Positions 930-58,579 of a stretch of 64,000 nucleotides of DNA are shown in pieces. Origin of the DNA: Candidatus Thioglobus sp. MED-G25 (lineage in GTDB: Bacteria; Pseudomonadota; Gammaproteobacteria; Arenicellales; UBA868); NCBI GenBank assembly GCA_002456995.1, contig NTKC01000005.1, positions 1-64,000 on the forward strand, in the 5' to 3' direction. The notes under the pieces are model-generated. The model had not been told where the DNA came from. It did not search any database and saw nothing but the letters and a program-made list of their open reading frames with translations. A program made the translations under genes and the position numbers. Each line of letters begins with the position of its first letter. Within the stretch, counting starts at the first letter, position 1.

Positions 930-2033
930 TCAAACAGAAGGTGTCGTATCTTTTGCGACTTGTTTCAGAAATACCATCGGATCGGTTCCACCGGTGCCAG
1001 TGTGTCCAGGGCCTGTTTGCGATATCTGCGATGACACATATTTTGTCACTATTTTAAGGTGAGACTGACGGAACTCGATCAGTGCATTCACACACGCTGC
1101 GTGGATGTGCTGACAGCCATCATGTCGCTCAATGGCACGGGCTAAGGGTCTGTCATTTTCCAGCGCATTAATATAGGCAGCATGACCCGTAGGCATATAA
1201 TTACGCATCGTAACGAGATAGGATCTTGATTGTTCTTCCTGATGCACAATGCCGAACATTGCATCTATAGCCTGAAGTAAAGAACTTTGTGCGGCGCTGC
1301 CACCAAAATAGTTTCTTGGGTTCTTCTTGCACCCCCTGTACTCGATGTTCTTAAATGAAGCTAGGAATGGTCGTATTCGGTTGTAAAATATATAGGGATC
1401 GCAGTTTTCGTACATACGGTTCAGTGTCGTATTCAGTGCGACCAAGTATTCTTGAACTTCCTCAAGTGAATCTTCAATTTGTTGGAAGTCGTCGGAATCC
1501 GCTGCTTGCTGAATACGGTTGAATTGTTTGAGTACGCCTGCACCTATCGCCTCGATTTCGGTTGTGACCAGGTAAAACCAGGACTCATCAAGACCGCCAT
1601 GAAACTGGATAAGTGTCCTGAGGTTGCCCAATTTGATCGAGCCATTGGGTTCCAATTGTTTCCAGTTATTCAAGACCAGCGAGGCATGTGCAAGAGTGGG
1701 CGGTCGGCCCAGCCGTTCGGCAACCAGGGTCCAAGGTATTGCAATACTTTCCGGAACATAACCTGAGGACTCGTAGCCCTGCCAGACGAATCCATGGCCG
1801 AATATGGATAGCAGTAGCATGGCTCGTTCCAGTTCCATTGATGTCTGTAGGGACGATACGTCGTCAATTATCGGCATGGCTTCGGCCTGTGTTCTGAAAA
1901 CACCTGCGTTTAGAAGTCCAGAGAATTCCCGAGCCATCGTATCCCAGACTTCAAATTCGTCTGGGAGTGCCTCAAGTGGTTCGTGGCCTGGTAAGAAACC
2001 GTTGGCGGCGTCTATTTGATAAGAATCAAGCAT
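930..2033 (-). CDS. indoleamine 2,3-dioxygenase (IDO) family protein
   Basis: 367 aa; FGGSAAQSS, MRNYMPTGH, SHLKIVTKYV (region of the heme-proximal His) and GTGGTDPMVFLKQV match motifs known from IDO1. Confidence 0.88.
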   Translation of the reverse strand: MLDSYQIDAANGFLPGHEPLEALPDEFEVWDTMAREFSGLLNAGVFRTQAEAMPIIDDVSSLQTSMELERAMLLLSIFGHGFVWQGYESSGYVPESIAIPWTLVAERLGRPPTLAHASLVLNNWKQLEPNGSIKLGNLRTLIQFHGGLDESWFYLVTTEIEAIGAGVLKQFNRIQQAADSDDFQQIEDSLEEVQEYLVALNTTLNRMYENCDPYIFYNRIRPFLASFKNIEYRGCKKNPRNYFGGSAAQSSLLQAIDAMFGIVHQEEQSRSYLVTMRNYMPTGHAAYINALENDRPLARAIERHDGCQHIHAACVNALIEFRQSHLKIVTKYVSSQISQTGPGHTGTGGTDPMVFLKQVAKDTTPSV

Positions 2034-2115
2034 CTACTTGTTCATTTGTGACAGGGGCGATATGTGTACATTCGAACCATGAGGGTTCCCAAGTAAATGA
2101 CTCGTGACTGACCGC

Positions 2116-3396
2116 TTAGGTCACAAGTTTAGGAGTAGTGTAGGCCGGATCTTTCCAGCATTCGGATTCGAGAATATGAGCGAGCATCGATGCTGCTAGC
2201 CAAACATCTTCGTACCGCGTGTACAACGGTGCGAACCCAAATCGTAGTAAATCTGGTGCCCTAAAATCACCAATTACTCCATGGGCGATGAGCGCCTGCA
2301 TGATCGGCCAGCCATCGGTGTGGCTAAATGAAACCTGACTGCCTCTTTGGTTGCTGTCCCGAGGGCTAGCCAGTTGCAAGGGATAACCGTTACAGAACGA
2401 TTCTACAAGGTCGACAAACAGGGTTGTTAACCGTTTTGATTTTTTCCGAATAGTCTCCATATCGACCATTTCGAATATGTCTAGGCTCGATTCTAGAGCG
2501 ATGTAAGAAAGAACCCCGGGCGTTCCGCAGCGGAATTTGTCTATGTTGCTTGCCGGCTTGAAGTGTGTGTCGAAAGAAAAGGGGTCGGCATGGGCTTGCC
2601 AGCCTGTTAATGGGTTGACGGCATCTGTGATGTGTCGGTCGGCGACGAAAAGATATGCCGGTCCACCAGGTCCGGCATTGAGATACTTGTAGGTACAACC
2701 AACGGCAAAATCAACATCAGCCGCATTCAGATCCACGGGTACCGCACCCAGTGTGTGAGCCAGATCCCATATAACCAGCGCACCCGCCCGATGAGCCTCT
2801 TTAGTTATTCTTTCCATGTCGCGAATCAATCCGGTGCGGTAACTGACCTGGGTAAGAGTCACCACAGCAGTGGATGGACCGATCAATTCGAGTATCGATT
2901 CATCGCTTTCCTTTCCCTCAACGAGCTTATGTTGCGGATAAAAATGGGTGATAGCGCCTTGGATGATATGAAGATCCGATGGAAAGTTATCGCGTTCCGA
3001 TACAATTTCAGTTCGATCGGGACGCATTTCCAGAGCAGCTGACAGGGTCTTAAACAGATTAATTGATGTCGAATCAACGACCAACACTTCACCAGCATTA
3101 GCGCCCATTAGGGGCGCCAGTCGATTGCCGAGGGTCAAAGGCAGTATGTGCCAATCCCGATCATTCCAACTTCGTATCAACCCGGTACGCCAGCCCTCGG
3201 TAACGGCTTCTTGGATCTTTTCTGGCACCACCGCGGGCATAGCGCCCAGAGAGTTGCCATCGAGATAAACCAGATCAGGTGGTAAATCAAAAAGGTCTCC
3301 AATACTGGAGAGCGGGTCAAGGCCATCTTGCTTGCGAGCGTCTAACAGGCCCGGACTTTGGCTGATGGATAATGTTTCAAGAGACGTGGTTTTCAT
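2116..3396 (-). CDS. kynU: kynureninase
   Basis: 426 aa; YLDGNSLGAMP N-terminal motif, VIWDLAHTLGAVPVDL, CTYKYLNAGPGGPAYLFV PLP-lysine region. Confidence 0.95.
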   Translation of the reverse strand: MKTTSLETLSISQSPGLLDARKQDGLDPLSSIGDLFDLPPDLVYLDGNSLGAMPAVVPEKIQEAVTEGWRTGLIRSWNDRDWHILPLTLGNRLAPLMGANAGEVLVVDSTSINLFKTLSAALEMRPDRTEIVSERDNFPSDLHIIQGAITHFYPQHKLVEGKESDESILELIGPSTAVVTLTQVSYRTGLIRDMERITKEAHRAGALVIWDLAHTLGAVPVDLNAADVDFAVGCTYKYLNAGPGGPAYLFVADRHITDAVNPLTGWQAHADPFSFDTHFKPASNIDKFRCGTPGVLSYIALESSLDIFEMVDMETIRKKSKRLTTLFVDLVESFCNGYPLQLASPRDSNQRGSQVSFSHTDGWPIMQALIAHGVIGDFRAPDLLRFGFAPLYTRYEDVWLAASMLAHILESECWKDPAYTTPKLVT

Positions 3397-3405
3397 CTGA
3401 CCATC

Positions 3406-4281
3406 TCATTTATCCGTAGATACCGACAGTTGTTGAAAGAGCGCAGTATCGGTATGGGCAATATCGTACATAATGTCAAAATGATGCCGACTCCGCACTT
3501 TCGTGAGTTTTATATGGGTGGTAATTTTTGAGCATTTATCTGCATATGCCTTGGATTGGCGTATGAACTCTTTAGTTTCGTGTTCTGCATAGACGATGTC
3601 CAGAGCAATAAACGGATCGGCATCATAAAACTGTGGGCTGAGTGCTCTCGCACTTTCAATCGACAATCCCAGTGGTTCGTTGACATAAGTTTGAGAAATC
3701 GGTTCGAGGTCGTAGATGCCGCCAATAAGGATGGCGCGTTGAGGTCGGGTAAGGAGTGTTGATCTGTCGTGATCCTGGATACCCGGACTAATTGCACAGG
3801 CCAGCAGATGAGCGCCTGCAGAATGCCCCATGACATGAATCCCTTCCTTGTCGAGGCCGTAATCAAAGGAGTTTTCACCAAACCAGTTGATGGCCTGGCG
3901 ACAACGTGAAATCATCTGTGGAATGTTTGAGGCAGGCGCAAGGCCATAGTTGATACTCGCAAACGCGTATCCGGCTGTTGTCCAGGCGGTGGCTAAAAAA
4001 CTGTGATCATCTTTTGAGAGTTGTTGCCAGTAGCCGCCGTGAGCAAATATCAGCAAAGGTATGTTTTCGGAATTGGCTGGTATGGCTGGCAGGAAGAGGT
4101 CTAGTTTTTCTTCAACATTAGTACCGTAGGGTAGGTCGGTAATCAGATGTGCCCCATAGCTGTCTCGCACCCGTTGGGACTCCGTGGTGTACGATGATAT
4201 GAATGGTTCAATGTCGCCCACCATACTGCTCGGCGAGTATTCCCGTTCTAGTTCTTCAGTAGATAGGCTTTTCCAGTTCAA
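3406..4281 (-). CDS. alpha/beta hydrolase, kynurenine formamidase (arylformamidase)-like
   Basis: 291 aa; HGGYWQ oxyanion motif and GHSAGAHL nucleophile elbow; 9 bp upstream of kynU on the same strand. Confidence 0.82.
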   Translation of the reverse strand: MNWKSLSTEELEREYSPSSMVGDIEPFISSYTTESQRVRDSYGAHLITDLPYGTNVEEKLDLFLPAIPANSENIPLLIFAHGGYWQQLSKDDHSFLATAWTTAGYAFASINYGLAPASNIPQMISRCRQAINWFGENSFDYGLDKEGIHVMGHSAGAHLLACAISPGIQDHDRSTLLTRPQRAILIGGIYDLEPISQTYVNEPLGLSIESARALSPQFYDADPFIALDIVYAEHETKEFIRQSKAYADKCSKITTHIKLTKVRSRHHFDIMYDIAHTDTALFQQLSVSTDK

Positions 4282-4474
4282 TGCTGAACACCCGTTCGTG
4301 GGCCTTGCGGTCTATGCCATCGGCGAAAGTGCAAAGGAATAATTGTATAGAAAGTGTCCTGAAATCGGGACTGGACGCGGGGTTGCTTTTTCCCATAGGC
4401 CGGGTAAGGTGTTTCAACAGCGTCTGCAAATCGATACAGAATCGCATGAGGCGCAGGTGAGAATGGAGTCGTGA

Positions 4475-54973: not shown

Positions 54974-55114
54974 CGAGATTCTGTTCCGTAGGACTATAGG
55001 TATACGAGGAGTGTGGTATTTAACGAATTGAGATTAGGCAATACAAGGTTCAGACGGAACTGGTAGGATTATGATGTTGATATTGTCCAGTAGCTAATGT
55101 GCCAAGGGGGGCAG

Positions 55115-58100
55115 ATGAAACTGCGAAACGTTGCGCTCGATGACAAGTATACGCTTGAAAAGGGTCAAATATTTGTGTCCGGTATTCAGGCGCTGGTTCG
55201 GCTCCCTATGCTCCAGTCGCAGAAAGATCAGGCTATTGGGCTTAACACTGCAGGTTTTGTGACGGGATACCGTGGTTCTCCCCTAGGTGGCCTGGACCAG
55301 CAACTTTTCCTTGCTCAAGAACACTTGACCCGGGAGCGAGTTAAGTTTGCGCCCGCAGTTAACGAGGATCTGGGTGCAACGGCAGTCTGGGGGACTCAGC
55401 AGGCCAATTTGGGTGGTGATGGGTTATATGATGGCGTGTTTGCGATGTGGTACGCAAAGGGTCCTGGTGTAGACCGTTCGGGTGATGCGATACGTCATGG
55501 AAATTTAGCAGGAACGTCCCCTAATGGTGGAGTGCTGCTGTTACTCGGGGATGATCATGCCTGTGAATCGTCGACCACAGCCCACCAGAGTGAGTATTCG
55601 CTGGTTAATGCGATGGTACCAGTTCTCAATCCAGCTGGAGTTCAGGATATTCTAGATTATGGGCTCTACGGCTGGTCATTATCTCGCTACAGCGGTTGCT
55701 GGGTAGGCCTTAAGTGCGTACATGACACAGTGGAGGCATCCGCCTCTGTTTCGGTGTCTGTTGACCGAATTCAAACCGAGGTGCCTGAGAACTTTATTTT
55801 GCCCAGTGGCGGGGTACACATTCGTTGGCCCGACGGATTTCTTGAGCAGGAGGAACGACTTCACCGGTATAAGCTCGAGGCAGTCAATGCTTTCGCTCGC
55901 ACCAATCGAATAGATCGCCAGATTATGGGTGATTCCAATGCCCATACGGGTATCGTGACTACTGGCAAATCCTACCTGGATGTCAGGCGCGCGTTGTTAG
56001 AGCTCAATATCGACGAAGTTCGGGCAAAAACCCTGGGCCTGAAACTCTATAAAGTCGGAATGTCCTGGCCTCTTGAGCCAAATGGGATCCGCAGCTTCAC
56101 GCAGGGCCTGAAACGACTTATCGTTGTTGAAGAAAAGCGTGGTCTTATCGAGCAGCAGATTCGTGAAATTCTCTACGGTGTGTCCAATGCACCGACTATC
56201 GTTGGCAAACTCGCTGAAAACGGGGAGAGTTTGTTTCCAGCGCACGGGCGACTGGAAGCGATGGATATAGCGCTGTCGATAGGCGAGCGATTGGCCAGTA
56301 CGACCAATAACCAAGAACTTATTACACAGATCGAGACGCTTAGGGCGCGCCAAACACGGGACAGCTTAAGGTCGCCAGAGATGATTCGTACACCCTATTT
56401 TTGTGCCGGGTGTCCGCATAACAGCTCTACCGTAGTACCCGATGGAAGTCGGGCTATGGCTGGTATAGGTTGCCATTTCATGTCAGTGTGGATGGACAGA
56501 AATACCGCTGGTTTTACTCAGATGGGGGCGGAAGGATCCAGTTGGATTGGGGAAAGTCCCTTTAGTGGGACAAAGCATGTTTTTCAGAATATTGGCGACG
56601 GCACTTATTTCCATTCTGGAATTCTTGCGGTCCGTGCCAGCGTAACAGCGGGTGTCAATATTACCTACAAGATACTCCACAACGATGCGGTTGCAATGAC
56701 CGGTGGTCAGCGCGTAGATGGTTCGTTGGATCCGGCGATCATCACGCGCCAGGTCCATGCAGAGGGGGTCAGGCGAATTGCGGTTGTGTCGGATGACCCA
56801 AAGAAATATTCAAAAGCCCTTCAATGGGCACCCGGCACCACATTCCATCATCGGGATCAGCTGGATCAAGTACAGCGCGACATGCGTGAAGTTACTGGCA
56901 CCAGTGTAATTGTTTACGATCAGACCTGTGCGGCGGAAAAACGTCGTCGCCGTCGTCGGGGTGAAATGACTATCCCTGATAAGCGGTTGTTTATCAATGA
57001 AGCTGTTTGCGAAGGCTGTGGCGATTGTGGAACTCAATCAAATTGTGTCGCTTTGGTGCCTGTAGAGACGGAATTTGGGCGGAAAAGGGCGATAAACCAG
57101 TCGACCTGTAACATGGATTATTCCTGTCAGTCTGGTTTTTGCCCGAGTTTTGTAACGGTGATTGGGGGGTCTCTTAAAAAAGGGCATAGTAACACTGGAT
57201 TTCAGGCGCTGGCGGACTCTTTGTTACTGGAACCTGAAGTGACGCCTATTAGAGGGCATTACAGTATTCTGCTGACAGGTATAGGGGGAACGGGTGTCGT
57301 CACTGTCGGTGCGATATTGGGCATGGCTGCCCATCTCGCCGGTAAGGGTTGTTCCGTGTTGGATATGGCTGGTCTGGCCCAAAAAGGGGGCGCTGTTACC
57401 AGCCATATTGTCCTCGCAGAGAAACCGGAGGATATCAACGCCACTCATGTTGCTGACAGTGGCACAGACCTTTTGCTCGGCTGCGATATTGTGACCTCTG
57501 CTTCTGATGAAAGCGTAAAGAAATTGAGATCAGGAACAGTCGCTGTCGTTAATACGCATCAGCAGATGTCAGGTGATTTTATTAAGGATCCAGACACTCA
57601 ATTCCCATTAGAGAAACTGTTGTCTTCCATTCGAGATTGTGTCGGAAGTTCTCTTCATACAATCGATTCAACGGCGGTTGCTACAGCAGCTTTTGGGGAA
57701 TCAATTGCCGGAAATTTGATGATTTTGGGTTTTGGGTACCAGCTTGGAGGTATACCTGTACCTTCGGTTGCAATTGAAAAAGCTATTGAACTCAACGGAC
57801 AGGCGGTCCAGATGAATGTTCAGGCATTTCGAATGGGCCGGGCGGCTGCAGCTAAGCCTGATGAAGTTACACGCTTGCTGAGCTCTTTTCCGGCCAGTCA
57901 ACCAGTCGCTGTCGACGAAACTGTTGCCCAAACAGTGGAGCGGTTGGAAAGTCATTTGGTGACTTATCAGAGCAAAGGATATGCCAGACGTTATCGTGCG
58001 CTTGTGGACGCCGTACAAACTGTCGAATCTGGCATTAAAGGAACTGATCTTTGGCTTACACTTGCGGTTGCACAGTCCTACCATAAGTTATTGGCTGTTA

Positions 58101-58579
58101 AAGACGAATATGAAGTCGCTCGCTTGTACACGGACAAGCGCTTTAAGGAAAGCTTAGAGTCCACGTTCGAGGGGTCGTATCGACTAAAGGTGAATTTAGC
58201 ACCACCTATCATGTCAAAGCCAAATCGAAAAAATAACACGATTCAAAAAAGAGCGTTCGGCGGTTGGATATTCCCGCTATTCAGACTAATGGCTTTATCG
58301 CGTCGCATACGTGGAACTGTGCTTGACCCATTTCGATACAGTAAGGATAGGGTGTTTGATCAGCAGTTGGTCAGGGACTACGAACAGACTGTTAGCAATC
58401 TGTGTGCCGGACTATCTGCTAGCAACCTCGATGCAGCGATTGAGATTGCTTTATTGCCACAATCTATTCGAGGATTTGGGCATATCAAGAGCGCTAATGC
58501 GAGCAAAGCGCAGACGACGGCAGAAAAACTTTGGTCCGAGTTTGAGATGCTACCGGTTGATGTGGAGAACGCTGCCTGA
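55115..58579 (+). CDS. fused indolepyruvate ferredoxin oxidoreductase
   Basis: About 1154 aa from ATG at 55115; TGYRGSPLGGLDQQL, CAGCPHNSSTVVPDGSRAMAGIGCH, CEGCGDCGTQSNC Fe-S site, GIGGTGVVTVGAILGMAAH gamma domain. Confidence 0.93.
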   Translation: MKLRNVALDDKYTLEKGQIFVSGIQALVRLPMLQSQKDQAIGLNTAGFVTGYRGSPLGGLDQQLFLAQEHLTRERVKFAPAVNEDLGATAVWGTQQANLGGDGLYDGVFAMWYAKGPGVDRSGDAIRHGNLAGTSPNGGVLLLLGDDHACESSTTAHQSEYSLVNAMVPVLNPAGVQDILDYGLYGWSLSRYSGCWVGLKCVHDTVEASASVSVSVDRIQTEVPENFILPSGGVHIRWPDGFLEQEERLHRYKLEAVNAFARTNRIDRQIMGDSNAHTGIVTTGKSYLDVRRALLELNIDEVRAKTLGLKLYKVGMSWPLEPNGIRSFTQGLKRLIVVEEKRGLIEQQIREILYGVSNAPTIVGKLAENGESLFPAHGRLEAMDIALSIGERLASTTNNQELITQIETLRARQTRDSLRSPEMIRTPYFCAGCPHNSSTVVPDGSRAMAGIGCHFMSVWMDRNTAGFTQMGAEGSSWIGESPFSGTKHVFQNIGDGTYFHSGILAVRASVTAGVNITYKILHNDAVAMTGGQRVDGSLDPAIITRQVHAEGVRRIAVVSDDPKKYSKALQWAPGTTFHHRDQLDQVQRDMREVTGTSVIVYDQTCAAEKRRRRRRGEMTIPDKRLFINEAVCEGCGDCGTQSNCVALVPVETEFGRKRAINQSTCNMDYSCQSGFCPSFVTVIGGSLKKGHSNTGFQALADSLLLEPEVTPIRGHYSILLTGIGGTGVVTVGAILGMAAHLAGKGCSVLDMAGLAQKGGAVTSHIVLAEKPEDINATHVADSGTDLLLGCDIVTSASDESVKKLRSGTVAVVNTHQQMSGDFIKDPDTQFPLEKLLSSIRDCVGSSLHTIDSTAVATAAFGESIAGNLMILGFGYQLGGIPVPSVAIEKAIELNGQAVQMNVQAFRMGRAAAAKPDEVTRLLSSFPASQPVAVDETVAQTVERLESHLVTYQSKGYARRYRALVDAVQTVESGIKGTDLWLTLAVAQSYHKLLAVKDEYEVARLYTDKRFKESLESTFEGSYRLKVNLAPPIMSKPNRKNNTIQKRAFGGWIFPLFRLMALSRRIRGTVLDPFRYSKDRVFDQQLVRDYEQTVSNLCAGLSASNLDAAIEIALLPQSIRGFGHIKSANASKAQTTAEKLWSEFEMLPVDVENAA

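Follow-up and report, generated by a model that had tools for sequence, protein, structure and literature searches.

A probable four-gene kynurenine operon with an IDO2-type indoleamine 2,3-dioxygenase in Candidatus Thioglobus sp. MED-G25

The window analysed here covers the opening 64 kb of contig C29, which is 97.5 kb long and comes from a 1.6 Mb genome assembly (G000) that is 86% complete. It begins with four genes on the minus strand, in the transcription order hydrolase, kynU, IDO and aminotransferase. A putative α/β-hydrolase of the kynurenine formamidase (AFMID) kind (3406–4281, TTG start) is followed after 9 bp by kynureninase (KynU, 2116–3396), after a further 82 bp by an indoleamine 2,3-dioxygenase (IDO, 930–2033) and after 32 bp by a HisC-like PLP aminotransferase (1–897). 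The last is truncated by the contig end, with 299 residues seen of a protein that has about 363 in relatives. An earlier note had described the first three as a cluster. Its reading frames, strand and gaps for 930–4281 were exact on rechecking, but the cluster extends further than it said, the aminotransferase having been overlooked. The divergent intergenic region of 193 bp upstream of the hydrolase (4282–4474) is the expected site of the operon promoter. It contains no sigma-70 consensus beyond chance, and no promoter or terminator signal of the operon stands clearly above chance. The GC content of the operon is 0.48–0.54 against 0.50, which is no anomaly, and a foreign origin argued from GC content was rejected on that basis.

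The dioxygenase is of the IDO type and not the tryptophan 2,3-dioxygenase (TDO) type, as the earlier note had proposed. It matches PF01231 at 325 bits against a cut-off of 26 (E=7e-97, residues 2–364 of 367). The only other profile match is a trace of the related PrnB, below its cut-off, so no heme family outside the dioxygenases fits it better. The TDO profile, PF03301, matches neither the protein nor anything else in the window's own genome, and three of the four operon-bearing relatives likewise lack a match (four of the five genomes in all). In the remaining genome, G002, a TDO fragment lies next to a different kynU on a 3-kb contig; it is probably contamination. The nearest solved sequences are human IDO2 and IDO1, at 31–35% identity overall. 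The predicted structure (pLDDT 84, pTM 0.86) has the two-domain IDO fold, with a TM-score of about 0.9 to human IDO1 and IDO2. The earlier note had named loss of the heme-ligand residues as grounds for doubt; on alignment these residues are kept, as is the pocket. The proximal ligand is H325, equivalent to His346 of IDO1. In IDO1 numbering, F163, F226, R231, S263, D274 and the GTGGT loop are also retained. In the protein's own numbering, the pocket residues are F153, F216, R221, S246 and T347/T350, with Thr157 and His116 on the distal side.

These last two place the pocket with IDO2. Thr157 falls at position 167 of IDO1, where IDO1 has Ser, and His116 at position 126, where IDO1 has Tyr; both are as in IDO2. 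All 13 pocket positions compared are the same as in human IDO2 in the window IDO, in its four orthologues and in a Bacteroidetes IDO (L038); the shared IDO2-like residues are H126, T167 and Y227 in IDO1 numbering. The other bacterial IDOs that we found have Y126, H167 and Y226, with TG (in one case SG) replacing SA. The bacterial G(E/Q)xG-class enzymes carry His at the S167 position, where the bacterial GGSA class carries Thr; His is also the distal residue of TDO. In a tree of 27 IDOs, a branch with 100/99 support sets the GGSA class apart; because the vertebrate branch is long and the tree contains no fungal sequences, we claim no finer placement. The window IDO shares its fold, heme ligand and pocket residues with human IDO1 and IDO2, as well as the GGSA(A/G)QS loop, and it differs in being bacterial and operon-linked to its downstream enzymes.

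The IDO motifs quoted in the earlier note are present. One of them, GGSAAQSS, is on its own no guarantee that the enzyme uses tryptophan efficiently, because this IDO has an IDO2-type pocket with a distal Thr. Both in vertebrate IDO2 and in the S167T variant of IDO1, a distal Thr lowers the efficiency with tryptophan, and human IDO2 is poor on L-Trp, with a Km of 6.8–9.4 mM (PMC11593294). The window IDO groups with vertebrate IDOs yet has a residue linked to low tryptophan affinity. Efficient tryptophan degradation has been described only on the IDO branch of mammals, fungi, Gemmatimonas and Streptomyces scabiei (PMC4217691); the fungal, Gemmatimonas and Streptomyces enzymes are absent from our sequence and neighbourhood comparisons.

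The kynureninase scores 316 bits on TIGR01814 against a cut-off of 246, has its PLP lysine at K237, and is 46% identical to KynU of P. fluorescens (1qz9, E=6e-118). Its W77 and T292 correspond to W64 and T282 of the Pseudomonas enzyme, positions associated with a preference for kynurenine. Prokaryotic KynU is reported to prefer kynurenine (PMC12451956), and together with the W64 and T282 equivalents this favors anthranilate as the product. The hydrolase belongs to the BD-FAE/Abhydrolase_3 families and carries HGGYW, GHSAGAH and His267. It matches Drosophila kynurenine formamidase (4e11) at 29% identity (E=4.5e-24), and 'Lipase 1' (9n8r) scores slightly better (2e-27). The HGGYW oxyanion motif, the GHSAGAH serine and the HFDI histidine are common to it and 4e11. 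Next to AEH, at the probable acid position, 4e11 has Asp, whereas all four of the operon copies aligned have Glu, so the functional assignment leans partly on context. Similarity to 4e11 and the operon setting suggest that the hydrolase is a kynurenine formamidase. The aminotransferase was assessed through a full-length orthologue (L021:10008-11099). It reaches 268 bits on the hisC profile TIGR01141, under the cut-off of 276.5, and its best PDB match is the M. tuberculosis phenylalanine aminotransferase 4r2n. In each genome a different gene scores higher as HisC; in the window's own genome this is G000:C29:88101-89150 (351 bits). With the operon gene below the cut-off and a true HisC elsewhere, we rejected a role for it in the histidine pathway.

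The operon is conserved as a unit. Its full order is kept in two genomes of the same genus (G001 and G003) and in one of another genus of the family (G007); in a further congener (G002), whose contig begins inside kynU, it is kept from kynU on. The G007 proteins are 52–69% identical to those of the window, and dN/dS is 0.05–0.17 for all four genes, indicating purifying selection. KynU precedes IDO in every copy and the aminotransferase is the last operon gene in all five genomes. In the public records, the congeners include the MAGs Gammaproteobacteria bacterium REDSEA-S15_B12 and Acidiferrobacteraceae bacterium NP122, and the related genus is represented by Proteobacteria bacterium SP340; these names suggest that the operon-bearing lineage is marine. 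A divergent block of ABC, MFS and HNH genes adjoins the operon. The same block is present in the family members G022, G011 and G014 without the operon, which makes the operon a separable unit. We therefore rejected the block as a set of functional partners; it is ancestral in the family.

Bacterial IDOs are known, and several of those tested were poorly active. When 194 relatives were searched with PF01231, 13 of them proved to have an IDO; within the family these were only the four members of this genus and G007. At about 22 other bacterial IDO loci, inspected with 1–10 kb of flank, no homologue of kynU, the formamidase or the aminotransferase lies nearby, with one exception. That exception is a congener contig (L034, G003:C20 by coordinates) in which a second, different IDO and a further kynureninase-like gene lie some 10 kb apart. 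The earlier note had called the combination of IDO, kynU and formamidase uncommon, and the survey agrees: it is conserved here and absent there, apart from the kynU-like exception. We also sampled the class (369 genomes) and the phylum (399 genomes), which is not a census, and met the GGSA class in no genome but the window's own. A scan of contigs with patterns from a five-row alignment, likewise not a census, gave seven loci. In the literature, bacteria are described as having either TDO or IDO (PMC4191572), and none of the bacteria identified in a 2025 KEGG-based survey had both ido and kynU (PMC12451956).

Some minor observations concern these other loci. The second IDO paralogue of the congeners (L014–L017, L031 and L034, in G001–G003) is of a GQTGAQS class and adjoins an LDH2-like dehydrogenase. 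Hydantoinase-like, acyl-CoA ligase, TauD and RidA genes lie between it and the kynureninase-like gene. At L140 (G644:C4:67399-68453), an IDO gene is split over two reading frames, as a pseudogene or through a sequencing error.

The analysis establishes which genes are present, the families to which they belong, the conservation of their catalytic residues and of their order, and purifying selection, and we consider it likely that formamidase, kynU, ido and aminotransferase form a catabolic operon leading from tryptophan through N-formylkynurenine and kynurenine to anthranilate. The IDO, a heme dioxygenase, would use O2 to cleave the indole ring of tryptophan, giving N-formylkynurenine, from which the α/β-hydrolase would take off formate. 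KynU, a PLP enzyme, would convert L-kynurenine to anthranilate and alanine, and the HisC-like aminotransferase would most likely run a side or return reaction, with kynurenine, an aromatic amino acid or an aromatic keto acid as its substrate. We infer L-Trp as the substrate, co-transcription of the genes, the formamidase reaction, the role of the aminotransferase and the fate of anthranilate. The three reactions expected are those of the bacterial kynurenine (anthranilate) operon kynA/kynB/kynU, as in Pseudomonas, whose kynU is closely similar. The window operon differs from it in having IDO where Pseudomonas has TDO and an α/β-hydrolase where Pseudomonas has the KynB cyclase, as well as in the added aminotransferase. 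The IDO would thus replace the missing TDO, and a eukaryote-type formamidase the usual bacterial KynB. Counted against the catabolic reading are the distal Thr157, the Glu of the hydrolase with its proximity to lipase, and the fact that the incomplete genome of the window yielded no 3-hydroxyanthranilate dioxygenase (3-HAO) cluster.

That enzyme bears on a different end for the pathway, namely de novo NAD synthesis by a eukaryote-like kynurenine route to quinolinate. In fungi, IDO serves NAD synthesis (PMC5786828), NadA is absent from all five operon genomes (G000, G001, G002, G003 and G007), and 3-HAO is present in four of the five (L106–L109, at G003:C16, G001:C84, G002:C26 and G007:C33). 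However, the NadC-like matches in these incomplete genomes are weak, at about 25 bits, and the one examined scores best as nicotinate phosphoribosyltransferase, a salvage enzyme. Alongside the 3-HAO gene lie further genes of aromatic catabolism, which encode an ACMSD-like amidohydrolase, UbiD/UbiX, a VOC protein of the extradiol type and a FAH-family hydrolase, and the KynU has bacterial kynurenine-type residues. We regard NAD synthesis as very improbable. Since the genomes lack NadA and show no convincing NadC, a catabolic role is probable, and the lineage probably depends on NAD salvage. In the window's genus, the 3-HAO cluster also includes a RidA protein and an MhpA-like flavin monooxygenase and adjoins a group of hut genes that includes hutI. 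Relatives that have the cluster could use it to take aminobenzoates further.

The pathway could also have a different entry. The earlier note had left the substrate open between tryptophan and another indole, and the IDO may act on a substituted Trp, D-Trp or an indole natural product, its partners processing the matching kynurenine analogue. The IDO2-type pocket, given the poor activity of human IDO2 on L-Trp (PMC11593294), and the extra aminotransferase within the operon both suit such a substrate. Yet the KynU closely matches a tryptophan-pathway kynureninase, and neither a tailoring enzyme nor a dedicated transporter accompanies the operon from genome to genome, so we find this unlikely, if less so than NAD synthesis. 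On a par with the latter, and equally hard to credit, is that the aminotransferase is the operon's point, making kynurenic acid from kynurenine with KynU a side branch. Its constant last place and its distinctness from HisC speak for this, but its nearest solved relatives are phenylalanine and histidinol-phosphate aminotransferases, not kynurenine aminotransferases, and KynU stands ahead of IDO in every copy. Catabolism of tryptophan to anthranilate remains the reading that we prefer.

An animal- or fungus-type IDO in a bacterial kynurenine operon is uncommon and is made of known parts. Newly seen are the lack of the partner genes at the other IDO loci, with the one exception, and the complete pocket match to IDO2. 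Set in a conserved operon together with the enzymes that act after it, a bacterial IDO here has a clear expected role. We tentatively suggest, at less than even chances, that in these free-living bacteria the operon commits an IDO with an IDO2-type distal pocket to the kynurenine pathway. If so, the 'low-efficiency' IDO2 pocket would be either a genuine design for tryptophan catabolism or one adapted to some indole besides L-Trp, and this would bear on IDO2 function in animals. The operon offers a clean test of whether a distal Thr rules out a dedicated tryptophan-degrading function. Elsewhere in the window, an indolepyruvate ferredoxin oxidoreductase family protein (55097–58579, 1564 bits) might provide aromatic keto acids with a second route.
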